Shown: positions 36,810 to 52,220 of the stretch, in pieces
Numbering within the stretch: position 1 is the first letter of the stretch
Layout: every line of letters starts with the position of its first letter
From: a virus
Reading direction: 5' to 3' (one strand)
DNA: 64,000 bases
IMG/VR virus record: IMGVR_UViG_3300010354_000053
Location: 1 to 64,000 of that record
Notes under the pieces: model-generated
Databases searched by the model: none
What the model was told of the DNA's origin: nothing
What the model saw: only the letters and a program-made list of their open reading frames with translations
Position numbers and translations under genes: made by a program

Positions 36810-37072
36810 TTTACTTATACGAATTGATCAATCCGATGTATCGAGACATATCATTAGAAGATCACGGCCATCCATTTTTTATTATAAATGCACCCGTTTA
36901 TGAACCAGAATCTGTTATGCCATCTATCTCTCTTTCTACAAAAGTCAAGTTTCAACGTCTAGTTGAAAAGTTTGAAACAATGGACCAGCTGGCCGACTAT
37001 GTTATTTCTTGGGATACAAACAATGAGCCGTATAAAAACGCACTGTTAAATGAACTAACAAAAGAAGTATAA
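36806..37072 (+). CDS. Small protein of unknown function upstream of polymerase
   Basis: An 88-aa protein (MIYLYELINPMYRDISLEDHG...) overlapping the preceding gene by 4 bases; its stop is one base before the polymerase start. It reads as a compact mixed alpha/beta protein with no transmembrane segment. Tight coupling to the polymerase suggests a replication-related role, but no motif supports a specific one. Confidence 0.6.
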   Translation: MIYLYELINPMYRDISLEDHGHPFFIINAPVYEPESVMPSISLSTKVKFQRLVEKFETMDQLADYVISWDTNNEPYKNALLNELTKEV

Positions 37073-37073
37073 A

Positions 37074-40007
37074 ATGTCACATTTTAAGTTGTTTGATTTT
37101 ATTGATCAGCATCCAGAAGAAAAACGTCCGTGGAGTAACCGTTGGAAAAATAAAAAAATTTGCGCAAACCTTCATTGCCACTCTCATTTTTCTCTAGATG
37201 GGGGTTCGACTGTCCAAACTATGGTTGAACGGGCAGTAGAACTAGAATACACGCATTTTACACTTTCCGAACATGGAAACGTCAACAGCGCAGTAGCGTT
37301 ATACCGCGAGGCTGAAAAAATAAACAAAAAAGGGAATAAAATAAAGCTATTTCATTCGGTGGAAGCTTATATCCGACATCCTAAAGATGAAAAATCTACC
37401 CATATCACAATAGGATTTAAAACTAGCGCAGCGTTCCAAAAATACTGCGAGCTAACGCACATACTGTATGACGAGAAGCACATGGAGGTTAAATGGGGTG
37501 ATGTTAAACCCGTTATGACTACCGAGCATCTTGAAGAACTAGCTCCCCTTGGGATTGTCATAGGAACGGGCTGCATCGGTTCGTTCTTTAACTACCCCAT
37601 TTATAAACACGGTAATGTTAAGGAGTCACGTGAGCGCCTTGAGTGGGTTATGAGTTTAGTTGGAAGAGATAACATTTACGACGAGTGGATTGTAGATGAC
37701 CTTAGTAAATATTACGCGCCCGCTAAAGTTGAAGAAGGCAAAATTATCAAAGAAGCAGCGCTTGAGCTTAACGAGTGCTCACCTCACCTCCTGCAGTATG
37801 GGCAGAATACCCCAAACATTGGCAAAGCTGTAAACAATGTGCGCCGTGATCATGTTACAGGCCCATTAAATATTAAGCCGATTGTTTCGCTGGATTCTCA
37901 TTACGCTCGCAAGAAAGATAAAGTAATTCAAGACTCTAAGAATTACGGTTCGGATTGGATTATGTCTAACTTCCAACATATGCGCGGGGCTGAAGAATAT
38001 GCATACGAGGCTAAAAAATACGGTGGGCTGGAAGATAAATTTATTGAAGAACTGCTAGATAATACCGAAGATTATGCAGAACAGTTTAATGGTTACGAAT
38101 TTGGACCTTCCAAAGAATGGATTATGCCAAATTACGAAGATTCAAATTTAAAGTGGATTGTTAATAAGATTAAATCAGAAAAACGTATTAATCTAGATGA
38201 AAAAGATTACGCAGACCGTCTTAATTATGAAATTAAAGTCCTTGGCAACAATGGTGTATTTGATGGCTTGGCATATTTAAGAACAGTTAGTGAGATTTGC
38301 GACGAGGCAGAAAAACGAAATATTCTTGTTAATACCCGTGGTTCGGCTGGTGGTAGTCTTTCTTATTTTGCCGTAGGCGCATCTGTTACAGATCCAATTA
38401 AATATGACTTACAATTTGAGCGGCACATCACACTAGGCCGTATTAAATCTGGTTCCTTGCCGGACTGCGATTTGGATTTCGATGTTAAAGACGAAGCTCT
38501 AGCTATGATTTACGAAATGTATCCAAACAGAGTATTACCTATCTCAGTAAACCAAAACCTTAAACCACGATCTGCTATTAAAGATGCTGAACGATTTATT
38601 CTTGGCGCCGTGCGGCAAGAAACAGAAATCTTGACAAAGTCAATGCCAATTGTTCCACAAGGAAAAGATGAAACTGAATGGCTGTTTGGCTATGAAGACA
38701 TTGAAACTGGTGAGCATATTCAAGGATATTTTGAAACTTCTCAAGAACTGCAAGCATATGCTGCAAAAAATCCAGAAATTTGGATGATGGTTGAACAAAT
38801 GTGCGGAGTTATGCGGCAAAAATCTTCACATCCATGTGGGCTTATTGTTACACCTACCGAAAGTAAATACTGGCTTCCAGTGTGCCGCGTTGGAGGAAAA
38901 AATGGTGCGCTTGTAACTGCATGGTGCCCAAAAGATTTGGAATGGTACAAAGCAGTAAAGTTTGATGTTCTTGGTGTTAAAAAAATGCAAACAATCAAAA
39001 AAACATTTGAACTAATTAAGCAACGCCATGGGATTGATTTAAAATGGGGTGAGTTTGATCACAATGATCAAGTATTTGAAAATATTTACCATACCGGTAA
39101 AACTGATGCGACGTTTCAAACAAATACTTCCGGCATTCGTTCTCTGTGCGTAAGAACTAAGCCAAAAAATATTGTGGATATTTCCAACTTAATTGCTTTG
39201 TATCGTCCATCGACAATTGACTGGCAGATGCATTTGCAGCCATCGGAAGAGCGGCCAAGTGGATTCCATGGCAATGCCATGGAATTTTATGTGCAATGTT
39301 CTGCAGGCAATCAGAGACCTTATTACATTCACCCCTCGCTCGAACCAATTTTTGGTTCTACGTTTGGTGTGCCACTGTTTCAGGAGCAGATTCTAAAACT
39401 AGCTCGAGAAGTTGGTGGTTATTCATTTGAAGAAGCTGAAAACTTACGACGAGGTATTGGTAAAAAAGATAAAAAACTGATTAACGAGATTTTGGACGAT
39501 ATGGAAAAACGTATTATTACAAAAGATTCTTCTTGGGCTGAAAACCAATTGCACGAATTACGCGAGATGGTTATTGCGTCCGCACGTTATGGGTTCAATT
39601 GTGCCCATAGTACATCTTATGGAATTGTTTCTTATGCTACAGCGTGGCTAAAAAATAACTACCCTCTAGAGTTTTGGACTGCAGAACTTAGTGTTGAATA
39701 TGGAGACGAAGACAAATTGAGAGAATATTCTCAACTTATTTCTGACAAACTTTTGCAGCCTTCAGTCCTTCATTCCGATACAACAGATTTTGTCATTGAA
39801 GGGGACAAGATTCGCGTACCTTTGTGTGTTTTAAAAGGAGTTGGGGAAGAAGCCGCAAAAGCCGTCAAAAAACTTATGCATAATAGTTTAGAGGAGATTG
39901 GTTTAACCAAAAAGCCACAAGTGGTCAAAAACTCAAGAGAATCAACTAAACGTGCAAAAGTACTTAGTGACCAAAAATCGGATGATAATTTGTTGTCGCT
40001 CGGGTAA
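37074..40007 (+). CDS. dnaE: DNA polymerase III alpha subunit, C-family, lacking C-terminal region
   Basis: A 977-aa DnaE-type polymerase. The PHP domain at ~30-280 begins LHCHSHFS (H34, H36) and keeps SEHGNVNSA, HSVEAY, GTGCIGS and DSHYAR. The palm has RGSAGGSLSYFAVG (422-435), the catalytic pair D466/D468 in PDCDLDFD and the third Asp D631 in KFDVLGVKKM. Fingers and thumb regions include LFQEQILKLAREVGGYSFEEAENLRRGIGKKD (cf. DnaE) and FNCAHSTSYGIVSYATAWLK. It stops just after the first helix-hairpin-helix signature (VLKGVGEEAAKAV), so the usual second part of that region and the OB fold are missing. The missing part appears to be encoded at 51402-52220 on the other strand. Confidence 0.9.
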   Translation: MSHFKLFDFIDQHPEEKRPWSNRWKNKKICANLHCHSHFSLDGGSTVQTMVERAVELEYTHFTLSEHGNVNSAVALYREAEKINKKGNKIKLFHSVEAYIRHPKDEKSTHITIGFKTSAAFQKYCELTHILYDEKHMEVKWGDVKPVMTTEHLEELAPLGIVIGTGCIGSFFNYPIYKHGNVKESRERLEWVMSLVGRDNIYDEWIVDDLSKYYAPAKVEEGKIIKEAALELNECSPHLLQYGQNTPNIGKAVNNVRRDHVTGPLNIKPIVSLDSHYARKKDKVIQDSKNYGSDWIMSNFQHMRGAEEYAYEAKKYGGLEDKFIEELLDNTEDYAEQFNGYEFGPSKEWIMPNYEDSNLKWIVNKIKSEKRINLDEKDYADRLNYEIKVLGNNGVFDGLAYLRTVSEICDEAEKRNILVNTRGSAGGSLSYFAVGASVTDPIKYDLQFERHITLGRIKSGSLPDCDLDFDVKDEALAMIYEMYPNRVLPISVNQNLKPRSAIKDAERFILGAVRQETEILTKSMPIVPQGKDETEWLFGYEDIETGEHIQGYFETSQELQAYAAKNPEIWMMVEQMCGVMRQKSSHPCGLIVTPTESKYWLPVCRVGGKNGALVTAWCPKDLEWYKAVKFDVLGVKKMQTIKKTFELIKQRHGIDLKWGEFDHNDQVFENIYHTGKTDATFQTNTSGIRSLCVRTKPKNIVDISNLIALYRPSTIDWQMHLQPSEERPSGFHGNAMEFYVQCSAGNQRPYYIHPSLEPIFGSTFGVPLFQEQILKLAREVGGYSFEEAENLRRGIGKKDKKLINEILDDMEKRIITKDSSWAENQLHELREMVIASARYGFNCAHSTSYGIVSYATAWLKNNYPLEFWTAELSVEYGDEDKLREYSQLISDKLLQPSVLHSDTTDFVIEGDKIRVPLCVLKGVGEEAAKAVKKLMHNSLEEIGLTKKPQVVKNSRESTKRAKVLSDQKSDDNLLSLG

Positions 40008-40083
40008 GGGCAGGAAACCTAAGTCATACTTTTTATGGTGGCGTTCAAATTTTCCTAGTTGGAATAATATCAAAAAGTATAAA

Positions 40084-40305
40084 ATGCCAACCCGAATAAA
40101 TAAAAAAAATTTACATCACGGCAACCTTGGGTTGCCGCGGTTTTTTTGGGTGATGTTAACAGATTCTAAAGGACAAATTATTTCGTATGAAGAAATAAAA
40201 AAAGAATCTATCTTCGAAACAAATTCAAAGATAGATCTTTTAGAATTCTTAGCGGATAATAAATTTCCGTCACAAATTTTAGATGTTTTTATGTCAAAAC
40301 TCTAA
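40084..40305 (+). CDS. Doubtful small ORF downstream of polymerase
   Basis: An open frame continues from within the polymerase end to 40305. Usable ATGs are at 40084 and 40153, neither with a ribosome site. An intrinsic terminator (40119-40147) lies inside the frame, and the end overlaps the convergent lysis gene by 12 bases. The part after the terminator (MLTDSKGQIISYEEIKK...) could encode a ~50-aa peptide. I consider it more likely non-coding. Confidence 0.2.
   Translation: MPTRINKKNLHHGNLGLPRFFWVMLTDSKGQIISYEEIKKESIFETNSKIDLLEFLADNKFPSQILDVFMSKL
40119..40147 (+). terminator. Intrinsic terminator after polymerase operon
   Basis: CGGCAACC (40119-40126) and GGTTGCCG (40130-40137) form a perfect 8-bp stem with a TTG loop, followed after CGG by seven T residues. 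It lies ~110 bases after the polymerase stop and before the convergent lysis genes. An A-run on the 5' side may give weak function in the other direction. Confidence 0.8.
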
Positions 40306-40848
40306 TTTTAGACCCAGCCCTAAACTTTTATCTTTAAATCCATATCCAGTTTCTAGCCAGAGCGGGCCATATACTCGAAGGCCGAGATTTAACTGAAGGT
40401 TTAATTCTTCGGCTGGTTTTGTTGTTAATAATTTATCAATAGGCTTTTCAGCCATTAATCCAGCAGAATATTTAGATAAATTTTGTTTTTGAATTACTTC
40501 AGTTTCTTTCTTTGTGCTTTCTTTTTCTTTGGTTTCTTTTGATTCTTTTTTATTTTTGTCTGTAGTTTCTTTTTGTTTTTCTTTTGTTTTTGATTCTTCT
40601 TCTGTTATTTCTACAACTTCTCCGTTTGGTTTTGTGACTTTCTTAGTTTTTTTCTTTTCCCATTTTTTTGATTCGTATTCTTTTTTGAGTCGTTCGCGCT
40701 CTTCCGCAATCACCTTTTCTGTTTTTTCTTTATCAACAACTATAACTTCTTTAATTTGAATATCTGGTGCCGGTCGTCGGCCATAACCGATTGCATAGCC
40801 ACCGACTAAACACAAAACTGCTGCAACGATATATTTTTTTTCAAACAT
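40294..40848 (-). CDS. Membrane-anchored coiled-coil protein; atypical spanin candidate
   Basis: A 184-aa protein with an N-terminal transmembrane segment (YIVAAVLCLVGGYAIGYG, residues ~6-23), a long Lys/Glu-rich charged middle (~55-125) likely to form an extended helix, and a C-terminal ~45 residues of beta-strand pattern ending in LGLGLKLEF. Such an end, with alternating hydrophobics and a terminal Phe, looks like an outer-membrane beta segment. It follows the endolysin gene with an 8-base overlap. Spanins link inner and outer membranes at lysis; one protein spanning both this way would be unusual. No lipobox seen. Confidence 0.45.
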   Translation of the reverse strand: MFEKKYIVAAVLCLVGGYAIGYGRRPAPDIQIKEVIVVDKEKTEKVIAEERERLKKEYESKKWEKKKTKKVTKPNGEVVEITEEESKTKEKQKETTDKNKKESKETKEKESTKKETEVIQKQNLSKYSAGLMAEKPIDKLLTTKPAEELNLQLNLGLRVYGPLWLETGYGFKDKSLGLGLKLEF

Positions 40849-41287
40849 ACGGGTTCTTCTTTTGTAGATCTTTCCATGTTAGATTTTGAGGATTATATTC
40901 AAAATGGGCGGTTTCTTTAAATTTCTTCCAATTACCAGCCCACCTTAGACCCTTTGATTCAAGTATAGGCTTTACAAGACTCCAAACTTTACGATAAAGC
41001 TTTTCATCCCAAATAATCGCCCCCTTTTTGTCAACAAAATGAAAATCGCCGGCTAAACGATAATTGTGCGTAGACTGACCGCCTTTTGCATTTGTAACAA
41101 TTTTTCCTGGCTCGGTTCGACCTAGTGCATAAAGCTTGTCTTGATCTTCAGGCGCTCTATAGCCAGAATGACACTGCATGTTTAGCCCATTAGCATATGC
41201 AGTTTCTAGCATTCGAGACATAACTTCTTGGGCGGGCGGAATCAACTCAGCTAGAAGTTTTTTTGTTCTTTTGTCCATTTCCAGCAT
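40841..41287 (-). CDS. Endolysin: M15-type L-alanyl-D-glutamate peptidase
   Basis: A 148-aa peptidoglycan peptidase. It shows the M15 zinc site: STHNYRLAGDF gives H74 and D81, and ETAHFE gives H128. CHSGYRAPEDQDKLYALGR precedes the site, as in VanY/CwlK-type endolysins. I chose the ATG at 41285-41287 with AGAGGA upstream, rather than a TTG two codons earlier. There is no signal peptide, so export would rely on the holin candidate encoded just upstream, with which it overlaps. T5-like and other Gram-negative phages use this class of enzyme. Confidence 0.85.
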   Translation of the reverse strand: MLEMDKRTKKLLAELIPPAQEVMSRMLETAYANGLNMQCHSGYRAPEDQDKLYALGRTEPGKIVTNAKGGQSTHNYRLAGDFHFVDKKGAIIWDEKLYRKVWSLVKPILESKGLRWAGNWKKFKETAHFEYNPQNLTWKDLQKKNPYV

Positions 41288-41486
41288 ACTCAATATCCTC
41301 TTTCTGGTTCATGCGAGGTTCTTTGTATGCTTTTTCTACACCATTCACAGCAGCCAATGCAATGGCTACAGACGCAATCGAGTTTGCAACATCCACATCA
41401 TTAACAAATCCTAGAATTGCTAAAATTGTGATTGTATAAAACGCAATTGCAGTCCGCCTGCAACCATTAAATGGTGTTAATAACAT
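41247..41486 (-). CDS. Putative holin, two transmembrane segments
   Basis: A 79-aa protein with two hydrophobic segments (TAIAFYTITILAILGFV, ~12-28, and VANSIASVAIALAAVNGV, ~33-50) and a hydrophilic charged tail (KAYKEPRMNQKED). Size, topology and position directly upstream of and overlapping the endolysin gene fit a holin. Its ATG overlaps the preceding stop (TAATG). No specific holin family is recognised. Confidence 0.65.
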   Translation of the reverse strand: MLLTPFNGCRRTAIAFYTITILAILGFVNDVDVANSIASVAIALAAVNGVEKAYKEPRMNQKEDIEYAGNGQKNKKTSS

Positions 41487-41983
41487 TACTTATATTTCTT
41501 CTTTAATAAAGAATGAGCCTTTTTAAGAGCTTCTGCACTTCCAAACCCTTGTTTTTTAACTGGTTTGTCGTTTACAGATTTTTCTTCGCCCATTCTTTCA
41601 GAATAATCACCTATCACATCAGACTCTGGAATTTCTCCGGCGACGGCGCCTTCTTTTGGTTTTTTTGGCAAAGCTGGATTTTTTGTTTGCTCTGCAGATT
41701 TTTCCATATCTTCTGTTTTTGCCATTGCAGTTTGTGATGACGTTTGCACCAAGGCGGGATTAGGTTCCATGCCTGGCATTGAACCGCCGGCTGGCATAGC
41801 CTGTTTTTGTAATTCTGTAGCTTTTTCCATACGTAGTTTATTAAAAACCTGAGCACGATCTTCAGCATCAACTTTTGGGATAACTTCATTAACTTTAGCA
41901 GGGCCTTTAATTTCTTCTACCGCTTGATCAACCGACAATCCTTTGCACATTTTGTGCATTTTTTTAAGATGTTGAACGCTCAT
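41486..41983 (-). CDS. Unknown charged, Met/Pro-rich protein upstream of lysis genes
   Basis: A 165-aa protein starting MSVQHLKKMHKMCKGLS; the ATG at 41981-41983 has GGAG upstream, whereas a start 45 bases upstream does not. After ~70 residues of helical sequence it becomes low-complexity (MPAGGSMPGMEPNP, NPALPKKPKEGAV) and ends Lys-rich (LKKAHSLLKKKYK). First gene of the lysis run. It could be a virion or regulatory protein; no family recognised. Confidence 0.6.
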   Translation of the reverse strand: MSVQHLKKMHKMCKGLSVDQAVEEIKGPAKVNEVIPKVDAEDRAQVFNKLRMEKATELQKQAMPAGGSMPGMEPNPALVQTSSQTAMAKTEDMEKSAEQTKNPALPKKPKEGAVAGEIPESDVIGDYSERMGEEKSVNDKPVKKQGFGSAEALKKAHSLLKKKYK

Positions 41984-42027
41984 TTTTTTCTCCAAAAAAA
42001 CCTTGACTTTTAATGAAATTAATGCCA

Positions 42028-42078
42028 TTGTCTTATATTAGCAAATCGCTAGTATAAATTATACACTTGGAGTCGCCT
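42028..42078 (+). promoter_or_regulatory. Possible promoter for amidoligase/phosphatase pair
   Basis: The gap between divergent genes holds TATAAATT (42053-42060), within the near-palindrome TATAAATTATA, with a TTGTCT about 19 bases upstream and GGAG before the start codon. It resembles either a sigma70-type -10 box or a T4-late-like TATAAATA box. Weak evidence. Confidence 0.35.
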
Positions 42079-43002
42079 ATGGCAATTGATTTAAGCAAAA
42101 TGACGTTTGGCGCTGAACTAGAACTTGGCGATGTTGATACAAAAATTATTCTGCCGCTAGGTAATAGATGGTGTGATAAAGATGGATCTATTTGTAATTC
42201 CAATGGAACTGCAAACGATCCGAAAAAAGTTTTTAATCGGTATGGTGGTGAGATTCAAATGAAGCCTGAAAACTCTCCGGAAGAGTTGCTTCGAGCCACT
42301 AAAGAAATCTACGACCTTCTGCCTAAAAAACACTTTAACTTTACCACTAATTTGCATGTTCATATTCGTATTCCCGGACTTAAGGATGACTTAGAGGCCC
42401 TAAAGAAAATTGCTGCGTATCTTCGTAAATATGACGAAGAAATTTATGAACTTATAGACCCAAATCCATTCCCAGAACGACAACTTAAATTTTCCAATCC
42501 TGACTTTTACAACGGCGCAGTCTCGAGATGGCGTCGTCGTAATAAGTCACATAGGTATCGGGTGACAGAAAAAGTTCATAAATTAATGATGAACGCAAAA
42601 TCACCACGCGAGTTCTACGAGGCTCACGCCCCTAAAAATCGTTTTGGACAACCAATGTGGCATGTTGTGGTCAGAGCCGGTGTGAATCTCAAACAAGTAT
42701 TTGAAGATACTGAAACTATTGAGTTTCGGCATTTTACAATGTCACCAGATCTAAATAAGATGTTGTCGGCATATAAGTGGCCTAGGCTTCTTATGGAAGC
42801 AATTTTTGTCACGGGGCACACACCGAAGCAGATTTTAGAAAACAATCCAGACTTGGTATTCCAAAATTTTCATCCGTATGATCACGAACTAGATAAAATC
42901 TTTAGGCAAACCAATGTTTACCATAACAAACGTTCCGAAGTGCGGGAAAACTATAAACGTTTAATTGAGCAGGGCCTAGTTGACGAACAGACTCTTTATT
43001 GA
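42079..43002 (+). CDS. Amidoligase-family enzyme
   Basis: A 307-aa protein; the ATG at 42079 is preceded by GGAG, so I prefer it to an in-frame TTG at 42067. It shows amidoligase-type motifs: TFGAELEL near the N-terminus, then YGGEIQMKPENSP, NLHVHIRIPG and ETIEFRHF. These are the positions of the metal- and substrate-binding acidic and His residues of the ATP-grasp-related amidoligase superfamily (glutamine synthetase/COOH-NH2 ligase fold). Members join a carboxylate to an amine, often on proteins or peptides. It is followed after 7 bases by a tyrosine phosphatase gene. The substrate is unknown; host protein modification or a DNA-linked amino acid are options. Confidence 0.65.
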   Translation: MAIDLSKMTFGAELELGDVDTKIILPLGNRWCDKDGSICNSNGTANDPKKVFNRYGGEIQMKPENSPEELLRATKEIYDLLPKKHFNFTTNLHVHIRIPGLKDDLEALKKIAAYLRKYDEEIYELIDPNPFPERQLKFSNPDFYNGAVSRWRRRNKSHRYRVTEKVHKLMMNAKSPREFYEAHAPKNRFGQPMWHVVVRAGVNLKQVFEDTETIEFRHFTMSPDLNKMLSAYKWPRLLMEAIFVTGHTPKQILENNPDLVFQNFHPYDHELDKIFRQTNVYHNKRSEVRENYKRLIEQGLVDEQTLY

Positions 43003-43009
43003 GGATTGC

Positions 43010-43462
43010 ATGAAAGTTTTATTTATTTGTACGGGTAACAAGTTTCGTAGTCCAACTGCGGAACATATTATGAAATGCCTAGCCCCGCATTTAGAAGTTA
43101 AATCGGCTGGAACAGCGGAAGGCGCTCATAAAAACTATTTAATGGCCAAAAAAATGCGTCGTTGTTTAATTGAATTAGGTTATCCTGAGCCCGCAATACG
43201 TTCTCAGCATCTGACGGCGGAATTAATGGAGTGGGCAGATATTGTTTTATATATGGCCCCTACACATTTCAACTATATGTACAAAAATCATGTCCAATTT
43301 ATACATAAATGCAGGCCGCTCTACACCGTCCTGCCAGACCTTGATTTAAAACGAATTGAAGACCCTGCTTTTATTAAAAAGCATGAAGATGTTATGGAAG
43401 TAACTAAAATTATTGAAGATTCGATTAAAAAAATACTAAACGATGAAGCAAAACTAATTTAA
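43010..43462 (+). CDS. Low-molecular-weight protein tyrosine phosphatase
   Basis: A 150-aa protein with the P-loop at its very start: VLFICTGNKFRSPTAE gives C7 and R13 of the CX5R motif. IEDPAF (D118-P119) is at the place of the general acid Asp-Pro. ATG at 43010 with GAGGATT overlapping the amidoligase stop, so the two are coupled. Family members remove phosphate from tyrosine, or from arginine in some bacterial lines. In a phage it could counter host signalling or act on the product of the neighbouring amidoligase. The catalytic residues look intact. Confidence 0.8.
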   Translation: MKVLFICTGNKFRSPTAEHIMKCLAPHLEVKSAGTAEGAHKNYLMAKKMRRCLIELGYPEPAIRSQHLTAELMEWADIVLYMAPTHFNYMYKNHVQFIHKCRPLYTVLPDLDLKRIEDPAFIKKHEDVMEVTKIIEDSIKKILNDEAKLI

Positions 43463-43653
43463 ACTTCGGAATTACCGATCTTATTCTTTTGACGAGAACC
43501 TGTTGGAATAGATGTACCCGGAAGTTTAGGAGCTTCTGGCATTTTTATTTCTGAAGTTTTAACTGTAGTTTTTTTAGAAGTAGAAGATACAGAACCGTCA
43601 AGAATTTTGTACATTCTGTCTTGTACAGTTTCTGCAGGTGTGGATTTAGTCAT
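43459..43653 (-). CDS. Small Pro/Lys/Thr-rich protein of unknown function
   Basis: A 64-aa frame starting MTKSTPAETVQDRMYKILDG, with the ATG inside the end of the deaminase-like gene (8-base overlap). The second half is disordered (KMPEAPKLPGTSIPTGSR). No ribosome site is evident, so translation would be coupled. It is convergent with the phosphatase gene, with a 4-base overlap. Uncertain as a gene. Confidence 0.4.
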   Translation of the reverse strand: MTKSTPAETVQDRMYKILDGSVSSTSKKTTVKTSEIKMPEAPKLPGTSIPTGSRQKNKIGNSEV

Positions 43654-44182
43654 TTTCTTGCACAGTTCGACTATTTCTAACAGTTTGTTCAAGTTCGGCC
43701 TCTGTTACAATCCAAGGTGGTACGCAAACCATTTTATGCTCTATTTTACCATATTGGATATTAGATAAAAAAGGCTTCATGAGTTCTTGTTCATCTTGAT
43801 GGCGATTTTCTTTAATATAACCAATGTTATCGATATTTTTATCCAGTAATTTAGACATACAAGCCATACAAGGCTGAACACTCACAATAAATTGGTATTT
43901 ATGGATATTGATTGTTTGAATCATCTTTTCCAGAAGATCTGTCTCCGCATGGCGAATTAAGAATTTTTTAGCAGGATTTTTATCAATATTTAACTCGGCA
44001 AGAGCTTTTGAATTTTTTTCAAAAGCAGAAATTATCTTGTTAACGCCATAAGCAATAACAGAATTTGTGGATGTATCTACAGCAATTGCGACTACCTGAA
44101 CTAGAGGATCACTACTTCGTTTTTTAAGAACGTCAAATAGGATCTCGGTACTAACTACAGGGAAGGAGCCGTAGACAAACAT
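43646..44182 (-). CDS. Deoxycytidylate (dCMP) deaminase-like protein
   Basis: A 178-aa zinc deaminase: RHAETDLL gives H78 and the catalytic E80, and VQPCMACMSK gives C105 and C108. This is the HAE...PCxxC signature. Length and layout fit dCMP deaminases, which supply dUMP for thymidine or for dU-derived bases. Phages that make 5-hydroxymethyl-dU need this input. It overlaps the kinase gene by 28 bases and is the last clear enzyme in this operon. Other deaminase specificities (e.g. riboflavin-type) cannot be excluded. Confidence 0.65.
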   Translation of the reverse strand: MFVYGSFPVVSTEILFDVLKKRSSDPLVQVVAIAVDTSTNSVIAYGVNKIISAFEKNSKALAELNIDKNPAKKFLIRHAETDLLEKMIQTINIHKYQFIVSVQPCMACMSKLLDKNIDNIGYIKENRHQDEQELMKPFLSNIQYGKIEHKMVCVPPWIVTEAELEQTVRNSRTVQEND

Positions 44183-44793: not shown

Positions 44794-45160
44794 GAAAGCC
44801 CTCAATATACTCTTGATTTGTTTTATGGCATTTAAAACAAATTCTGTTTCCGTTTGGTGAAAAGAAAACATTGTTGCATTTTAAACAATTTCTATTTTTT
44901 GCAATGGCAGAACCGTGTTCTGAAAAAAACTTCTCGTCCGCTTTTCGTAGTTCTTCCATAAGCTGTTTGTGTCGCTCTTTACGTCTATTTGACGTTCGCT
45001 CTTTATTCTTTTTTATTTTTTCTGTTAAATCAATCCAGTTTAAATTATGTTGAATAACATAATTTTGCATGAATGATTCATGATTATCAATGGATGGTAC
45101 TGGAATATTGAGAGTTTTGCAAAACATTTTTAATGTAATTTTAGTTTCATTAACAATCAT
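44786..45160 (-). CDS. Small protein with C-terminal zinc ribbon
   Basis: A 124-aa protein. Residues ~45-75 are a highly charged helix (KIKKNKERTSNRRKERHKQ), and a four-Cys ribbon follows (NCLKCNNVFFSPNGNRICFKCHK: CxxC-x13-CxxC). Such proteins often bind nucleic acid or RNA polymerase. It overlaps the kinase gene by 8 bases. The family is not recognised; a regulatory or DNA-tethering role within the modification operon is possible. Confidence 0.6.
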   Translation of the reverse strand: MIVNETKITLKMFCKTLNIPVPSIDNHESFMQNYVIQHNLNWIDLTEKIKKNKERTSNRRKERHKQLMEELRKADEKFFSEHGSAIAKNRNCLKCNNVFFSPNGNRICFKCHKTNQEYIEGFHD

Positions 45161-45170
45161 TACTCTGCCC

Positions 45171-45500
45171 TTATTCTAATTCAGCACCCATGTCTACGAT
45201 ACCTTCTTTCTGCAACAACGAAAGGGCTAACACTCGTTTAGAATCTGCAAAATTTCTTGTTTCATTGAAGGCACTGCGAAAAGTTTGCAGAACTTCTTGA
45301 GCAGCTTTAAATTCCGAATTAGCTTCCATTTCTTTCTTTGCCTTCAAAACATGCGCATTCTGTTCTGCAATGATCTGTTTTAGTTTATCGACGTTATAAG
45401 TTTTTAGCATTTGCAATTCATCGTAAGAATAATTCTTTACAAACGCTTTTTCAATATCACTCAGATGGCTGTACTTATTTGACTTACTCTTCTTTCTCAT
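45171..45500 (-). CDS. Small helical protein of unknown function
   Basis: A 109-aa protein (MRKKSKSNKYSHLSDIEKAFVKNYSYDELQML...) whose start overlaps the preceding gene (ATGA). It is predicted to be mostly helical, with a coiled-coil-like centre (LKQIIAEQNAHVLKAKKEMEA, split by charge). There is no catalytic motif. It lies between the transferase-like gene and the zinc-ribbon gene, so it may be an accessory subunit. Confidence 0.55.
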   Translation of the reverse strand: MRKKSKSNKYSHLSDIEKAFVKNYSYDELQMLKTYNVDKLKQIIAEQNAHVLKAKKEMEANSEFKAAQEVLQTFRSAFNETRNFADSKRVLALSLLQKEGIVDMGAELE

Positions 45501-46360
45501 TTAACATCCTCCACAAAAAGTAATTGTTTCGTTTTAATGTATGCAGTTTTTTCTTTTACTGAAAAATGGTGTTGTAAAAACTTATGATCAAATTCACATT
45601 CATCTATTAAATTCCAAAATACGTTATCTGAATACAATTCTGGTTTTTTAAGAACTAAAAATTCATTAATGTCATGTCCAACTACATAACTCCCCTTGTG
45701 CAGTATTTTAGGCACTTTACACAAACAGCTTTCTACTTGACCAATCGGCGCGTTCCAAATTTTTGATAAATTCCAACCCAAAGCTTCCCATTCTGGGATT
45801 ATGTCTTTAGTAAATTTTTGATTAATACCATATAGGTAACGAAGTCCAAATACTGGTCCAGTATTTTTGTTAGGATCAGAGCTTTCGATTCCTAACCCAT
45901 TAATACGAAAGCTTTTATATCCAAGCGTTTGATCCATGAGTTCACAAGTTTTATAGCAGGCCCAATCACCAAAATATGGAATAGTCTTGAATAACTCTCT
46001 TCCGCTGTTAAAATCTAACTGCTCTGTTTTAAGCGTTGATTCAACTGTTAACCATCTATCAAAAGCTTTTTCAAAATTTTCAGTTCGTCGCACTTGTGGT
46101 GTTCGACCACGTTCCATTCCAAACTTACTGATTTTTTCAAACATCTGAATGGGTGTTTTACCTTCAGCAATTCCCCGCATGAATAAAACCATGCTTTCGA
46201 TAGAATAGTAATATACGTACATGAAAATTGCGGTTTCGGGGTCAAATTTTTCGTGATTAATAATTGATTTTAGAAAAGGATAAACAGGGTCAACATCTTG
46301 TGTGCGAATTAAAGCTAAGCTAGCCTTCTCGAAATCAGAAAAGTTAAATAGATGTTGCAT
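45497..46360 (-). CDS. Amino-acid:DNA transferase-like (aGPT-pyrophosphorylase type) protein
   Basis: A 287-aa protein starting MQHLFNFSDFEKA; the ATG lies within the end of the flavoenzyme gene. It looks like the helical, DNA-glycosylase-related proteins called alpha-glutamyl/putrescinyl thymine pyrophosphorylases: TQDVDPVYPFLKSIIN near the start, AIFMYVYYYSIES, and later IPYFGDWACYKTCELMDQTLG followed by GLRYLYG. In phages such as SP10, phiW-14, ViI and M6 this family replaces the diphosphate or phosphate on 5-hydroxymethyl-dU with an amino acid or amine. The call rests on remembered family patterns plus operon context, so a profile search is essential. Confidence 0.5.
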   Translation of the reverse strand: MQHLFNFSDFEKASLALIRTQDVDPVYPFLKSIINHEKFDPETAIFMYVYYYSIESMVLFMRGIAEGKTPIQMFEKISKFGMERGRTPQVRRTENFEKAFDRWLTVESTLKTEQLDFNSGRELFKTIPYFGDWACYKTCELMDQTLGYKSFRINGLGIESSDPNKNTGPVFGLRYLYGINQKFTKDIIPEWEALGWNLSKIWNAPIGQVESCLCKVPKILHKGSYVVGHDINEFLVLKKPELYSDNVFWNLIDECEFDHKFLQHHFSVKEKTAYIKTKQLLFVEDVK

Positions 46361-47249
46361 ATAAATACTCTTGAACGCCGTCAGCAAGTTCTTTAATGTA
46401 TGTTGGAGCATGGCGTAAGCCGTTTGCAGATTTTGGAGTTACATACATACAATTACCTTCTTGAATAAACGCATGTAAATAGTCTTCCATATAAGCTGGC
46501 CTCCAGCCTGTTTTTGGCTCTCCCGTTATTTCAATACTTACCTGGCCATTGGTTACTTTAGAAATATGCTCAATAATTTTTTGAATTTTATCTTTAATTT
46601 CTAAATCTTTTTGTTCTTTTTGATAAATAAAATGAGTACCAAGATAATAGGCATCGGTAGTGGGTTTTGGATATAGATACGCATTAATAAAACGACCTTC
46701 TTTTGCATTTAAACAAAATCTTGGATAACGATCAAATACTTCTCCGCTTGGCTTGCACTCTACCGACCATCCCCAACGATAATCGGTAGGTTTATATTTA
46801 TGAAAACCATTAGCGTGAATAATAAGGCGATTTGTTGGAGTTTTATTTATGCGAGAAGAAAAGAAAAAATCTTGGGTAAACTGCACAAACGCTTGTACAT
46901 TAACATGCATTGATTGTTTGTTTAAAACTTTAATATTACCTATAGTTTGCACGTACCTGAGTTCTTTAGAATTATTATGATGCGGAATGCTTTTTTGGGT
47001 ATATCCGTAAGGGACAGCTTCTGAAAAAAGAATAATTGGTCTGCGGTCTGTTTGGCTGAACGATTGTAGCCAAAGGTTATAATTAATTGCATCTAGCTCT
47101 TCACCTGATGGGTAAATACACCCAGTACTTGCCTTCCATGCACCGGGTGAATCGTCGTCTTCCCACGAAAACATAATTTTTCTACTAGTAAGCTCCCAAG
47201 CAAGAAGTGAACCAATCAATCCAAAGCCTTTAATATGTACTGTAGACAT
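46344..47249 (-). CDS. FAD-dependent oxidoreductase/lyase of the DAO (glycine-oxidase-like) family
   Basis: A 301-aa flavoprotein. The Rossmann motif IKGFGLIGSLLAWEL (G8, G10, G13) is at the N-terminus, with an acidic residue (E30 in FSWEDDD) at the end of the second strand. The C-terminal GWRPAYMEDYLHAFI and KSANGLRHAPTYIKELADG match the FAD- and substrate-end motifs of D-amino-acid-oxidase-like enzymes. In thymidine hypermodification, flavin-dependent lyases trim a glycine attached to 5-methyl-dU. Adjacent genes encode the proposed transferase, kinase and deaminase, so that role is favoured here. Confidence 0.65.
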   Translation of the reverse strand: MSTVHIKGFGLIGSLLAWELTSRKIMFSWEDDDSPGAWKASTGCIYPSGEELDAINYNLWLQSFSQTDRRPIILFSEAVPYGYTQKSIPHHNNSKELRYVQTIGNIKVLNKQSMHVNVQAFVQFTQDFFFSSRINKTPTNRLIIHANGFHKYKPTDYRWGWSVECKPSGEVFDRYPRFCLNAKEGRFINAYLYPKPTTDAYYLGTHFIYQKEQKDLEIKDKIQKIIEHISKVTNGQVSIEITGEPKTGWRPAYMEDYLHAFIQEGNCMYVTPKSANGLRHAPTYIKELADGVQEYLYATSI

Positions 47250-47265
47250 TTTTTAATTCCCGATT

Positions 47266-47736
47266 TTAGTACGGACCAAATGCTCCTCCGCCTCCGCGGC
47301 GCCGCGATGGCACTGCATTCTGGCGTTGTTGTTCTTCCCACTCCCTCTGCAACTCCTCTTGTGTTGCCGTTAGTACTGGCGACGGCGTGCGTTGATTCGC
47401 CGCCGTTGTCCCGTTTCCCACAGGTTGCTGCTGTTTTGGTGTAGGAGAAGAAAGATTTTGGTTAATTCGTTGCAATACTTCCACTACAGGATTGCTAGAA
47501 ATTTCTTTAAACAGAGCCGCTAGCTTTACTGCCTTTTCTTCTACTTCGGATATTGCTTTAGCCGTTTCTGGATTGTTATTTTCTAGTAATTGCTCCAGCA
47601 CAATGTTTAGGCTTTTTTGAATATGCCCCCAAAGAAATTCTCCGCTAGGAAGGGTCAAAATGCCCTCTTTAAGAGCTTCATTCTCGAGAGCCGATTGAAC
47701 ATCGCTCAGTAATTTAATTTTTTCTTTCTTGTCCAT
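47266..47736 (-). CDS. Unknown helical protein with disordered Gly/Gln-rich tail
   Basis: A 156-aa protein starting MDKKEKIKLLSDVQSALE; the ATG follows the recA stop with GAGGGA as ribosome site. The first ~90 residues are helical. The tail is disordered and rich in Gln, Thr and Pro, ending RRRGGGGAFGPY. Its DNA is more GC-rich than its surroundings toward the 3' end. Position after recA suggests a recombination accessory or oligomerisation factor; no family recognised. Confidence 0.5.
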   Translation of the reverse strand: MDKKEKIKLLSDVQSALENEALKEGILTLPSGEFLWGHIQKSLNIVLEQLLENNNPETAKAISEVEEKAVKLAALFKEISSNPVVEVLQRINQNLSSPTPKQQQPVGNGTTAANQRTPSPVLTATQEELQREWEEQQRQNAVPSRRRGGGGAFGPY

Positions 47737-47737
47737 A

Positions 47738-48826
47738 TCATCCCTCGTAAATATCAGCATTCATAGCAATACCCATGTTTTTTGAAGTAAATACTTCTTG
47801 CTTGATTTTGGCGTATAGGTTTTCATCCATTTTGACCAAATCTACAAACTTAGACATATTTCCCCCCTTGATTCCAAGCTCCTCCGGGCCAAAATAAATT
47901 GTGTTTCCTGTTTCTTTTTTATAGAGAACACCGAGATTAAGAGCTAGCTCAACAAGTTCTTCGTATTGGTTAGCTAGTTCGCCACTTTCCATATTTAACC
48001 AGAATTCAGCAGCTTTGCCCTCGACAGTAAGGCGCGTTTTATTAACTTTGCAGCGAACCTTAGAACCGACTGCAATATTCTTGCCTTGGCCGTCTTTGGA
48101 TTCGGAGACCAGCTTGTCCTTCATGCCAGTTGCCTTTTCCAAAAAAATAATAGTCGAGCATAGGTGTTTTAGCCGTTGACCGCCAGTAAGCACCCATGGA
48201 TAGTACTTAGCCATACGGGTATCGAGGTTTGCCATAGCATGGTTAGTAAGCACGACCAACACTTCGCACTCGTTAGCAATACGGTTTAATACGTTTAAGG
48301 CTGGATTGATGCTTTTAGAAATACCACCGTATCCATTAGCAGCACCGCTAACATCGCCTTCTTCCATTGCCCCCTGTTCGCCAAGTGCAGTAAGAGCTTT
48401 AACGGAATCAAGGACAATTGCGCAACAATCCTTGTTTTTTTTGATTTCCTCTTCTGCCTTAGCTAGAGGCTTAATAGCACCTTCAAACGTGTTTGATTGA
48501 ATAACTACCAGACGGTCGAGATCAACACCTAAACTGGCTGCACGTTCGGGGTTAAACGCATATTCTGTGTCGATAAATATGCCGTATTTAGTTGGATTCA
48601 TCCGCTGTTCTTGTGCAAGCAGCTTTAGAGCCATAAGACTTTTACCCGAGCCGGGTGAACCCCACAGCATAACTAGTTCACCGACCGGAATACCACCGCC
48701 TACGGCCCAGTCAAATGAAACCGAACCGGTAGAGCGAACTTGTTTTTGTTTATTAGAAAATTCTTTGGCTACGGCTACTCGCTCCATTTTTAACATTGAC
48801 GATAAATAACTTGGTAGTTTTGACAT
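47738..48826 (-). CDS. recA: RecA/UvsX-type recombinase
   Basis: A 362-aa recombinase. Walker A GSPGSGKS is at 56-63, FIDTEYAFNPERAASLGVD at ~90-108 is the RecA-like metal/ATP region, CCAIVLDSVKAL is the Walker B strand, and VVLTNHAMANLDT follows. It is nearer to bacterial RecA in these motifs than to T4 UvsX, and like RecA it drives strand exchange on SSB-covered DNA. The C-terminal part (~270-362) is phage-specific. GAGGT before the start. Neighbours encode SSB and SbcCD, so it belongs to a recombination-dependent replication set. Confidence 0.9.
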   Translation of the reverse strand: MSKLPSYLSSMLKMERVAVAKEFSNKQKQVRSTGSVSFDWAVGGGIPVGELVMLWGSPGSGKSLMALKLLAQEQRMNPTKYGIFIDTEYAFNPERAASLGVDLDRLVVIQSNTFEGAIKPLAKAEEEIKKNKDCCAIVLDSVKALTALGEQGAMEEGDVSGAANGYGGISKSINPALNVLNRIANECEVLVVLTNHAMANLDTRMAKYYPWVLTGGQRLKHLCSTIIFLEKATGMKDKLVSESKDGQGKNIAVGSKVRCKVNKTRLTVEGKAAEFWLNMESGELANQYEELVELALNLGVLYKKETGNTIYFGPEELGIKGGNMSKFVDLVKMDENLYAKIKQEVFTSKNMGIAMNADIYEG

Positions 48827-48834
48827 TTATTACC

Positions 48835-49305
48835 TCATGCACGGATGCTGATATTGTTAAAGTTAGTACGGCCATAAATATTTTTCTTAACATCATCTAT
48901 GGAAATTGATAGCACTGAACGGACTGAAGATAAATAAGAATAAACGCTCTCCCAATATGCTTCATCCTCTTGTGCCATTTGATATTCTGGTTGAATACAA
49001 ATAAATGCCTGTTTATCTTTTTCTGTGGGTTTTTGTAGATTTTTTTCAGCCGCCCATTCGGGGAATTTTTCAATTCGTAATACCGATTCAATTCGTTCCT
49101 TTTCAATCTTTGATTTAGACAAAGAGTATTGTGCTTTAGTCATTAGCTCAGAAATGGCAAGCAGTCCTTCACGCATTGACTGTAAAAACACAGGAGCGTC
49201 GTGTTCGCTAACTTGCACAGATTGTTTGCTCTTTGCAATAAAAGGAGCAAGTTGATTAGCGATCATGTTCATTTGATCGCGCTTAGAAACAACTTCTGAT
49301 GCCAT
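48835..49305 (-). CDS. Small helical protein between ssb and recA; mediator candidate
   Basis: A 156-aa protein; the ATG at 49303-49305 has AGGTGG upstream and lies just past the terminator that follows ssb. It is highly helical (LLAISELMTKAQYSLSKSKIEKERIES; YWESVYSYLSSVRSVLSISID). Position, size and helical content resemble recombination mediator proteins such as UvsY, which load the recombinase onto SSB-coated DNA. Sequence similarity to UvsY is not clear by eye, so this is a hypothesis. Confidence 0.35.
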   Translation of the reverse strand: MASEVVSKRDQMNMIANQLAPFIAKSKQSVQVSEHDAPVFLQSMREGLLAISELMTKAQYSLSKSKIEKERIESVLRIEKFPEWAAEKNLQKPTEKDKQAFICIQPEYQMAQEDEAYWESVYSYLSSVRSVLSISIDDVKKNIYGRTNFNNISIRA

Positions 49306-49322
49306 ATGTCCACCTAATATAT

Positions 49323-49350
49323 AAAAAAACCGACCAAATGCATGGTCGGT
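49323..49350 (-). terminator. Intrinsic terminator downstream of ssb
   Basis: ACCGACC (49344-49350 complement) and GGTCGGT (49329-49335 complement) form a 7-bp stem with an 8-base loop, followed on the minus strand by seven T residues (49323-49329). It lies between the ssb stop and the next gene in the same direction, so it should reduce read-through from a strongly expressed ssb while letting some transcription continue. Confidence 0.8.
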
Positions 49351-49373
49351 CAAAAACAAATTATTGAGTACTA

Positions 49374-50291
49374 TTAGAAGGGATTCCAGTTCTCATCATC
49401 TGTGCTGTCAAAATCAACAGATGCAGAACTTGCAGCCGGCTTACTACTACCTTCTTCTCCACTGTTAGCAGATTTGCGGAGTAAACGTTCAGGAAGTTCT
49501 GTGCCACCAGACGCAACAAATGCAGCCATTTCATCTTCACTCCAAAGGCGAGAAGCAAACATTTGCACTAAATCGATCATCTTTTCTGGATCTTTGAGGC
49601 GATCTTTAACAGAATTAGGGAGTGTTTGCTCATAAAGCATTTCGGTTTTTTGGCGACCAACCATCTTTGATTCAACGCAAAGATCTGCGGAATAACGAGT
49701 GTCGAGCTTTTCTCCAGTTTTATTTAATACCATCCAACCAGTAGGCTCAGAAGGATTGTAAACTTGTGCGTTATAATCTTTAAATTTATGCACAACACCA
49801 CTGATTTTTTTGCCGGCGTCACCAAAGATAGACTTGATCAACGAAGTTTTAGCATCAAGTACCGAAATCTTGTCGTCGCCGCGAAGAACAACAAGAACAG
49901 AGAATCTACGTTTTTGCTCAAAGGATTTAGCAAGCGTAGAGTGGTTCAAGTATTTTTCATGCATCTTATGACCAGGGGCTTTAGCACCCATTTCTTCGAG
50001 CTTGACGGCTTCATCGCGGTGCTTCCAATGAGCATCGCAGATAGAACACGTTTTGCCAACAGAGCGAGGGCATGGAATACGCATGTATTCACCATTCAAA
50101 GTGTATTCATGGAAATGGTTTTCTGCGTATGGACGAGGTTTACCAACATGTTGATTAACAACTACACGCAACGTAAGTGGCCAAGTAGTGTTTTTAGCAC
50201 CGCCAACATAGTTGATTTTTTCGCGTTGTTCTTTTTGTTTACCAACAGAGAAGTCTTCATTTTCAAGAAGTGAATAATCAAAATTTTCCAT
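49374..50291 (-). CDS. gp32-like single-stranded DNA-binding protein
   Basis: A 305-aa SSB of the T4 gp32 type. The zinc site looks conserved: H61 in NHFHEY, C74, C82 and C85 in CPRSVGKTCSIC, with the H61-C74 spacing of 13 equal to that in gp32. The core has the strand pattern of the OB domain (RFSVLVVLRG, SVLDAKTSLIKSIFG). The tail is acidic and ends STDDENWNPF, a hydrophobic tip like the C-terminal peptide that recruits partners in bacterial SSBs. It covers ssDNA and is expected at high level; a terminator follows. Confidence 0.85.
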   Translation of the reverse strand: MENFDYSLLENEDFSVGKQKEQREKINYVGGAKNTTWPLTLRVVVNQHVGKPRPYAENHFHEYTLNGEYMRIPCPRSVGKTCSICDAHWKHRDEAVKLEEMGAKAPGHKMHEKYLNHSTLAKSFEQKRRFSVLVVLRGDDKISVLDAKTSLIKSIFGDAGKKISGVVHKFKDYNAQVYNPSEPTGWMVLNKTGEKLDTRYSADLCVESKMVGRQKTEMLYEQTLPNSVKDRLKDPEKMIDLVQMFASRLWSEDEMAAFVASGGTELPERLLRKSANSGEEGSSKPAASSASVDFDSTDDENWNPF

Positions 50292-50304
50292 TTTACGGCT
50301 CCTT

Positions 50305-50931
50305 TTAACGGTATTGAAATTTAGCTAGCGACGGATTCATTGAATTATTAGCAGCAGCGGTTACTCTTGATAACTCGATGCCTTCTTCGATTGTTTTGAT
50401 CACGGTTGCAATTTTTTCTTCTTGCGACTTTTTACCACCCCCTTTTGGTACGGCAATTACGGTTCTTGACAAACGACTATTAAGTGGTGTGCGTCGAAAT
50501 GTGTAAAATACGTTTGATTGTAGCTCACCAGTTCTAAAAATTTGAGAAACGCTAATGTTATCTTGTTGCAAAGTTAGATCTTCTACGATTCGCATAAAAT
50601 CACGATTGCTTTCAATTTTTTTAGAAACTCGACTCGTATCAGGGGTTCTGCGAAGAGCTGTCGTGCCGGAAAATAATTTAAGGCAATTAGCAAAAAGGAC
50701 GTTCGCTTCAGTTGCAGAAATTTCAAATGGCATCTCTCTACTTAGAGATGCCGCGTATCCTTTTGTTTTCATTTCTTCCGCCATTTGAATTGCGTAATCA
50801 GAAACGTATCCAAGTTGGATGGGTGAATATTTTTCAACACCTTGAATAATAACTTGAGCTTCATCTTCTTTAAGATCTGATAAATCTATGATTACTGGAA
50901 TTGAATAAGAACGGTCGTACATAACGGTCAT
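50305..50931 (-). CDS. Unknown protein in replication operon
   Basis: A 208-aa protein (MTVMYDRSYSIPVIIDLSDL...) with good ribosome site GGAG; its ATG overlaps the stop of the HNH gene (ATGA). Mixed fold; a basic segment RRTPLNSRLSRTVIAVPKGGGKK near the C-terminus may bind nucleic acid. No family recognised. Its neighbours (ssb, HNH protein, polymerase fragment) suggest a DNA-metabolism role. Confidence 0.55.
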   Translation of the reverse strand: MTVMYDRSYSIPVIIDLSDLKEDEAQVIIQGVEKYSPIQLGYVSDYAIQMAEEMKTKGYAASLSREMPFEISATEANVLFANCLKLFSGTTALRRTPDTSRVSKKIESNRDFMRIVEDLTLQQDNISVSQIFRTGELQSNVFYTFRRTPLNSRLSRTVIAVPKGGGKKSQEEKIATVIKTIEEGIELSRVTAAANNSMNPSLAKFQYR

Positions 50932-51383
50932 TTTTTTCTCCTAGACGGTTTCTTTGGTTTTCGCCTTGCTTTATTTTCAACAATACTTTTTTGTTTATGA
51001 CAAGGAATACATTTTACGGTTAGTCTTGATAATATGTGTTGTTTGGTTTCATCAGTTATGTTTTCCTCATCAAAAAAATCTATGCCAACAAACATTCGAT
51101 CAACATATGTATTCCAATCTTTCCATCCAGAAATCTCAATTACTGGATCTTCATGATCTACCTGTATTTCTTTATAATCGAAAATTTTATTACAGGAGCA
51201 ACACTTATACTTAACTCTTTTTGCCTTGCTCTCTGTTCCGTCTTTTTTAGATGCTTTATATGGAATTTTGGCATTTTCTAAAACAAGTTTTTTGATTGGA
51301 CTAATAGAAAATAAACGCCGAATTGCAGAAATTAACGACGCTCTTAATACCCACTTACGTTTCTTTTTAGATTTCTTTGCCAT
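50928..51383 (-). CDS. HNH-type endonuclease-like protein
   Basis: A 151-aa basic protein with HNH-like arrangement: a CxxC pair (C61, C64 in CCSCNK), VDHEDP (D76-H77), and a second pair at C125/C128 followed by H129-K130 (KCIPCHKQKS). The N- and C-termini are rich in Lys/Arg, as in DNA binders. It may be a packaging, repair or resolving nuclease, or a homing-type enzyme. It sits between the split polymerase fragment and an unknown gene in the same direction, which argues for a housekeeping role rather than a mobile one. No strong ribosome site. Confidence 0.65.
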   Translation of the reverse strand: MAKKSKKKRKWVLRASLISAIRRLFSISPIKKLVLENAKIPYKASKKDGTESKAKRVKYKCCSCNKIFDYKEIQVDHEDPVIEISGWKDWNTYVDRMFVGIDFFDEENITDETKQHILSRLTVKCIPCHKQKSIVENKARRKPKKPSRRKK

Positions 51384-51401
51384 CTATTGATGGTAATAAA
51401 T

Positions 51402-52220
51402 TTAAATTGAAAAGTCGATGATATCTTGTAGATTAAAATATGGTTTTTTCGTAAAACTACTTACGCCAACTTTTCCCACAAATAAACAAAGTTTATGGCG
51501 ATAAGAACCTAGCTTTTTACTTATTTTAGGATCGTATTCAAATACTTTCTTTTTTATACCAGAAACTGGATCATCGACTAGCCGATCTTTTGGCCACATA
51601 CGCACTCGAACATCATCGCTGCCATCAAAGATAGAAACTTCAATAAATTCTTTACCATCATACTTTTTAGTGGCATATCCATTAAAATAACCAAAAAATG
51701 CTTTACGCCACATGCCAGTTTTTACCGAAAATTCAGATATTGTCCCCTTGTAGTTTTTAGCTATTGCTACACGGTCTTCTACTTTCTGGCCATTTTGATC
51801 AATAGTAAATTGGCGAGCGAATGGAAACACTTCGGCAAATTCTTCTTTAGTAGGTTTAAAGCCCAGTTGCTGTAGCGCAGATTGATATACATTACAAAAG
51901 TTAATGGAAAAAATTGGATTAAAATCAGCCAACCACAGCTGACGATCAAAGTCAGACGTGATTTTTTCCATAGGAATGCGTTGGTCTTTGATCTTTGGAA
52001 AACCGGCGGTAGACTTACACGCCTTTTTAAGTTGCTCAACAGCCGCAAATCTCTGGTCTACTGTAAGTGGTTCTGGAAAGCAGTCGTCAAATGCACCACT
52101 CATGATCATAGTTATAATTGGCGAAACCATAATTTTAATTTCGCCGGTTTCATAATTCTGTTTTACGTCCTTAACTTTCGCTAAAAAGTCTTCCCATTTA
52201 CTCAATGTAAACAACCTCAT
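51402..52220 (-). CDS. Detached C-terminal part of DNA polymerase III alpha (HhH remainder + OB fold)
   Basis: A ~270-aa protein. Its start looks like the part of DnaE after the first hairpin: SKWEDFLAKVKD, then VSPIITMIMSGAFDDCFPE, equal in pattern to the bacterial EALIxAGAFD region. The C-terminal ~110 residues resemble the DnaE OB fold (GYFNGYATKKYDGKEFIEVSIFDG, then VRVRMWPKD). The 977-aa polymerase at 37074 ends just before this region, so the two would complement each other in trans. Start is uncertain: ATG 52220 lacks a ribosome site, TTG 52205 has GAGG. There is no intein-like sequence. Confidence 0.55.
   Translation of the reverse strand: MRLFTLSKWEDFLAKVKDVKQNYETGEIKIMVSPIITMIMSGAFDDCFPEPLTVDQRFAAVEQLKKACKSTAGFPKIKDQRIPMEKITSDFDRQLWLADFNPIFSINFCNVYQSALQQLGFKPTKEEFAEVFPFARQFTIDQNGQKVEDRVAIAKNYKGTISEFSVKTGMWRKAFFGYFNGYATKKYDGKEFIEVSIFDGSDDVRVRMWPKDRLVDDPVSGIKKKVFEYDPKISKKLGSYRHKLCLFVGKVGVSSFTKKPYFNLQDIIDFSI

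Follow-up and report, generated by a model that had tools for sequence, protein, structure and literature searches.

The question raised by this locus is whether a phage builds the alpha subunit of its DNA polymerase III (Pol III) from two separate genes. The stretch analyzed here, called the window, comprises 64 kb of the 104,757-base virus record IMGVR_UViG_3300010354_000053, and all positions below are in window numbering unless another record is named. A first-pass annotation of the bare sequence had proposed that a 977-aa DnaE and its missing C-terminal part are encoded by two open reading frames (ORFs) on opposite strands, about 11 kb apart. Both are present in the ORF list: a large gene, the N-piece (37074-40007, plus strand), and a small gene, the C-piece (51402-52220, minus strand), lie as unlinked genes with 11.4 kb between them. 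The window has the gene content of a tailed phage, with UvsX/RecA, single-strand DNA binding protein (SSB), SbcCD and, by eye, baseplate-like genes. Further replication genes lie in the same record outside the window, where PHROG searches found DnaB, a primase of the DnaG type and a polymerase exonuclease. The explanation which we favour, with a probability of about 0.72, is that one alpha gene underwent fission, that its N-terminal part was relocated and inverted, and that the two products join in trans.

The N-piece contains the PHP domain, palm, fingers and the first helix-hairpin-helix (HhH) motif, followed by a tail of about 45 aa. Its Pfam matches to PHP (PF02811, 5.7e-23), DNA_pol3_alpha (PF07733, 8.6e-37) and DNA_pol3_finger (PF17657, 1.9e-34) all exceed the curated cut-offs. 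The contexts PDxDxDF and KFDxLG hold D466, D468 and D631, which are invariant in alignment A1 and which, judging from the E. coli motifs, we take to be the three catalytic aspartates. The domain content and the three aspartates named in the first-pass annotation are thereby borne out, as is its statement that the protein ends around the first HhH motif: the match to HHH_6 is partial and covers only the first ~40 positions. By hhalign, the N-piece covers columns 3-842 of a profile of intact phage alphas (E 1e-108). Residue ~931 is the last which can be aligned to intact alphas, and the final ~45 aa have no counterpart in them. The HhH pair and the OB domain are therefore not found within one polypeptide; the N-piece ends after the first HhH and the remainder most likely lies in the second gene.

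The ORF of the C-piece spans 51402-52250 on the minus strand and has 282 aa when counted from the first TTG. The likely start is ATG 52220, which gives 272 aa, or TTG 52205 with GAGG nine bases upstream, and the start of the gene overlaps the stop of the SbcC gene. The protein appears to consist of the second HhH/GAFD segment, a helical segment and OB-like strands. General family searches gave no match at E <= 1 in Pfam and a single chance-level match in PHROG (E 0.45). A profile was built from 43 non-redundant C-termini of intact phage alphas, and this alpha-tail profile scores the C-piece with 17.5 bits (E 3.6e-5 for 308 queries) and two of its relatives with 18.9 and 20.3 bits. In comparison, the best of 200 shuffled C-pieces reached 6.0 bits, the reversed C-piece 0.0, and none of 104 other ORFs in the record exceeded 3.3 bits. 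When the C-piece is ranked against 1,909 ORFs from other phage loci, it comes directly after the alphas (E 2.2e-4), and the next ORF follows at 0.27, in a list of non-alpha matches which leaves out those from loci L001, L102, L104 and L105.

The position of the match is that expected for a missing C-terminus. It opens at position 27 of the alpha-tail profile, passes the GAFD motif and enters the OB region. The N-piece ends at profile position 13 and the C-piece begins at about 27, so that the end of one piece meets the start of the other, a point which the first-pass annotation had left to be checked. The two best local hhalign matches of the C-piece are collinear and lie just beyond the end of the N-piece, in columns 852-896 (p 0.018) and 980-1003 (p 0.033). 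The size also fits: of 80 related viral loci, 76 have an alpha ORF which continues for 157-342 aa beyond the last aligned residue, which is about the size of the C-piece, and the remaining four run off the contig. Most of the signal is carried by the HhH/GAFD part (14.1 bits, best shuffle 9.4). Membership of the small protein in a different OB family, raised earlier as the contrary outcome, did not emerge, as no Pfam family matches and the alpha-tail profile does instead.

Gene order is evidence for the identity of the C-piece which is independent of the profile match. In the window the order, all on the minus strand, is SbcC, C-piece, HNH endonuclease, a hypothetical gene, SSB, a small gene and RecA. 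The SbcC/gp46-like gene (52198-54195; phrog_77 SbcC-like, 1.3e-27) is the upstream neighbour marking the presumed ancestral slot of alpha, and the RecA/UvsX recombinase gene (47738-48826; Pfam RecA 1.3e-24, phrog_97 UvsX-like 1.3e-46) is the downstream marker. Between them, the HNH endonuclease gene (50928-51383; PHROG HNH endonuclease, 4.2e-12) lies directly downstream of the C-piece, followed by a conserved protein recognized by its position (50305-50931; no family above chance in Pfam or PHROG), SSB (49374-50291; phrog_1607, 2.6e-5) and a conserved small protein beside RecA (48835-49359), which has homologues beside RecA in locus L011 (2.5e-13) and in Myxococcus phage Mx1 (0.001). In Mx1, an intact alpha of 1,289 aa is followed by a hypothetical gene, then by SSB and, after a small gene, by RecA. 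In L011, SbcC is followed by HNH, an intact alpha, two ORFs, the same small gene and RecA, and the interval from SbcC to alpha also holds small ORFs. Homologues of the SbcC of the window are found near alpha in both. From these gene orders it follows that the C-piece lies in the neighbourhood of alpha. The earlier proposal that the second gene begins with the matching remainder of alpha is thus supported by the purpose-built profile as well as by gene order. Homology to alpha is strong for the N-part and moderate for the C-part.

Viral contig scans found the N-piece in three other records with 88-95% identity and the C-piece in the same three records with 86-95% identity; two of these records are apparently one phage. 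Each piece occurs once, and far from the other, in all four records of this split group, which may be incomplete. A scan of genome contigs gave no C-pieces, and a RecA-based scan gave only the same three records. In a tree of 31 alphas (support 99/95, midpoint root; split rows from three of the four records), the split rows make up a single clade, which has a long stem and is nested in the group of the intact alphas of Mx1, L010, L011 and L012. The split therefore looks derived. The Mx1 alpha (OR576727.2), a single intact DnaE-like gene, shares 27% identity over 92% of the N-piece in addition to the neighbourhood. The ratio of non-synonymous to synonymous divergence (dN/dS) is 0.02-0.03 for the N-piece and 0.01-0.05 for the C-piece (NG86; dS saturated), which indicates strong purifying selection and thus maintenance of both pieces. 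In one relative of 169 kb (L005 14386-18908, minus strand), two large genes (715 and 791 aa) lie between the alpha pieces; they are absent as such from the window, and one of them carries KKESKPTAAPVEA repeats.

No replicase other than this alpha was detected. Exactly one PF07733 match is present in each of the six records searched, and a second alpha, which the first-pass annotation had named as an argument against the split, was found in none of the six. PolA (PF00476), PolB (PF00136) and the beta clamp (PF02768) were not found in the four, possibly incomplete, records of the split group. Since the only detected replicase is encoded as two distant genes, the halves most likely must find each other to work. 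Physical assembly in trans is a reasonable inference from these sequences, and the two-piece enzyme would probably be the functional replicase of the phage.

According to the favoured explanation, a Pol III alpha gene similar to that of Mx1 would have been broken between its two HhH motifs. The C-part would have kept the ancestral place between SbcC and SSB/RecA, where its start now overlaps the SbcC stop, while the N-part, with PHP and the whole catalytic core, would have been shifted by about 11 kb and inverted. For the order of events we infer as a likely route that the N-part was duplicated or transferred to a new, inverted site, and that the matching parts were then lost at each site. The N-piece would hold the active site, PHP and the first HhH, and from the C-piece would come the second HhH segment, the helical segment next to it and the OB-like region. 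The two pieces are likely joined through the HhH pair, and binding would re-create the DNA-holding/OB module that lies behind the active site. The rejoined enzyme would be the phage's own replicase and would act together with the DnaB helicase, the DnaG-type primase, SSB and a separate DnaQ-like exonuclease. A candidate for this proofreading subunit is a 447-aa protein encoded outside the window (L099 12283-13626, minus strand; polymerase exonuclease subunit, phrog_192, 8.8e-10). If the pieces assemble, they are a natural domain-cut experiment on Pol III alpha, which would show that the catalytic core does not have to share a polypeptide with the module behind it, and the contribution of the HhH pair/OB module to activity and processivity could be tested directly. 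They would also extend the list of essential phage enzymes that have been split into unlinked genes.

That phages can have a split Pol III alpha has been described before, with a different cut site. According to Iyer et al. (2021; PMC7824862), the group 2.2 jumbo phages encode a minimal Pol III alpha as two proteins from distantly located genes, which are proposed to reconstitute one enzyme. There the cut lies inside the catalytic module, between an NTP-binding part and a Mg/DNA-binding part, the remaining domains of Pol III are missing and replication relies mainly on PolB. The likeness to the locus described here is the encoding of Pol III alpha by two unlinked genes. Here, in contrast, PHP and the whole catalytic core are in one gene, the cut lies between the HhH motifs, and PolB was not detected in the four records. 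A Pol III alpha cut between the HhH motifs was not found to be reported in our literature search.

What caused the fission is a separate matter. One proposal, compatible with the favoured explanation, is that a homing endonuclease drove it, and suspicion falls on the HNH gene directly behind the C-piece for two reasons: a review of T4-like phages links phage endonucleases to split genes (PMC2988022), and the alpha of Alicyclobacillus phage MMB025 is cut by an endonuclease gene. Locus L009 has an ORF of similar size at the same place as the HNH gene, and HNH homologues occur near alpha in L011 and L012. In the latter two, however, the alpha downstream of the HNH gene is intact. In the window the HNH gene lies downstream of the C-piece and not between the pieces, and insertion alone does not yield an inverted N-piece 11 kb away. 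The T4-like genes-in-pieces listed in the review include Aeh1 nrdA (mobE), T4 gene 60 and the split gene 43 of phages 25 and 44RR, with mobile endonucleases involved, and the split Aeh1 nrdA is reported to be still active (PMC2988022). As here, a phage enzyme gene is cut in two; the T4-like cases, as described there, arose by insertion into one gene, whereas here the halves of a C-family polymerase are unlinked and on opposite strands. In MMB025 (PV686781.1; L105 3422-7784), alpha is likewise encoded in two genes near an endonuclease gene, but the cut is in the fingers and the halves are adjacent with the endonuclease between them, which may be an intron arrangement. We regard an HNH-driven fission as possible, with the odds against it; the HNH endonuclease may have been agent or beneficiary. 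Another interrupted annotation was seen in Staphylococcus phage MVC_VPHSA1 (L103 2441-5543), whose DNA polymerase is annotated as five consecutive pieces, perhaps due to frameshifts or sequencing errors.

Alternatively, the 977-aa protein could be a naturally short alpha which needs no partner; the small protein would be descended from the alpha C-terminus but would have taken on another task, e.g., ssDNA binding in the SbcCD-SSB-RecA recombination operon. OB-less phage alphas exist, since Agathobaculum phage AB434P2 has one: its 910-aa alpha ends after the GAVEF segment, and its neighbour is a RecA-like gene and not one for an OB protein. The location of the small gene in a recombination cluster and of the pieces on opposite strands would also fit. 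Yet the AB434P2 alpha retains the second HhH segment, which the N-piece does not have, and the two pieces studied here are complementary, with no domain missing or repeated, and similarly constrained. A self-sufficient short alpha is judged unlikely. The suggestion in the first-pass annotation that the small piece had become a separate ssDNA-binding or clamp-loading unit gained no support. A regular expression for clamp motifs found nothing in the C-piece. The AB434P2 alpha (L101 2995-5727), annotated as hypothetical, seems to end naturally before any OB domain. It was at first suspected of the same split, and this was rejected, the next gene being by eye a RecA-like ATPase.

A further, rather speculative reading, to which we give a slightly lower chance, is that of a natural two-subunit C-family replicase, in which the DNA-gripping C-terminal module is made from the recombination cluster (SbcCD, SSB, RecA) and the catalytic core from a separate unit. 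The supply of the small subunit would then switch the enzyme between a distributive and a recombination-coupled processive form. If this is true, the cut within the HhH pair would serve as a regulated joint and would be more than a tolerated scar.

Several results weigh against the identification of the C-piece as an alpha C-terminus, and some of them would suit an unrelated OB or DNA-binding protein which happens to occupy the slot of alpha and whose similarity to the alpha tail is coincidental. BLASTP and phmmer searches of the C-piece against 81 intact alphas gave nothing significant, nor did BLASTP against the Mx1 alpha, and tblastn against phage sequences gave no match. In the reverse direction, a profile of three C-pieces does not place alphas first among 1,910 ORFs (one alpha in the top 50), and a search of the PDB with a C-piece profile yielded no alpha and only chance matches to Tdp1. 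Taken by itself, the OB part scores little more than shuffled sequences (7.6 bits against 6.4 for the best of them). The first combined alignment included 37 of 39 alpha tails from loci (L036 and L061 omitted), and the second, used for structure prediction, 33 (L039, L063, L071 and L076 omitted as well). AlphaFold2 models of the C-piece were poor, with a mean predicted local distance difference test score (pLDDT) of 43.7 from three sequences and 49.9 from 36 sequences with intact alpha tails. In the second model, residues 1-70 rise to block means of 55-91, in an alignment which presupposes homology. Foldseek searches with both models returned noise. The points in favour of chance are the pairwise searches without significance, the reverse profile search and the missing Pfam family. 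Against it stand the forward profile match with its shuffle, reversed-sequence and other-ORF controls, the place of the C-piece as the best non-alpha among the 1,909 phage ORFs, and its collinearity with the end of the N-piece at the right size and in the right slot. We consider a chance resemblance improbable.

A split intein which trans-splices the two pieces, as in cyanobacteria, where DnaE is encoded by two distant genes joined in this way, is hardly credible here, although two distant DnaE genes would fit it: no intein family was found at E <= 1 (Pfam) in either protein, in agreement with the earlier description of a split without inteins, the cut site is another one, and the ~45 residues past the last aligned residue of the N-piece and the ~9 before the first aligned residue of the C-piece leave too little room for intein halves. 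An assembly artefact or pseudogene, conceivable for a window from a single metagenome record, is equally remote, since three further records, of which two are apparently one phage, repeat the arrangement with 86-95% protein identity, and dN/dS is about 0.01-0.05.

The N-piece lies within a plus strand island (36546-40305) surrounded by minus strand genes. Just upstream of it are two small ORFs of 87 and 88 aa (36546-37072, plus strand) without a PHROG match. A 107-aa gene (39982-40305, plus strand) starts within the tail of the N-piece in another frame and is kept in two related records according to DNA alignment; it matches no PHROG family and not the alpha-tail profile, and is likely translationally coupled to the N-piece. 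In the last 46 codons of the N-piece (39867-40004), synonymous divergence from locus L004 is about 0.20, compared with 1.5 for the whole gene. As the overlap with the 107-aa gene comprises only the last few codons, it leaves this low divergence largely unaccounted for, and recent recombination or an RNA/regulatory constraint may be the reason. An Rfam scan of 34000-55500 gave no intron and no other RNA, and a promoter scan gave fewer sites than shuffled sequences.

Upstream of SbcC on the minus strand lies an SbcD/gp47-like metallophosphoesterase gene (54155-55132; PHROG metallo-phosphoesterase, 4.7e-4) with homologues in L010 and L011. Two further genes of the window were recognized by eye. 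A GroEL-like protein is encoded at 57846-59456 (plus strand), and Mx1 has an annotated GroEL near its replication genes. The product of 42980-43462 (plus strand) has the look of a low-molecular-weight phosphatase with a CTGNKFRSP motif and is regarded as a putative member of this family.

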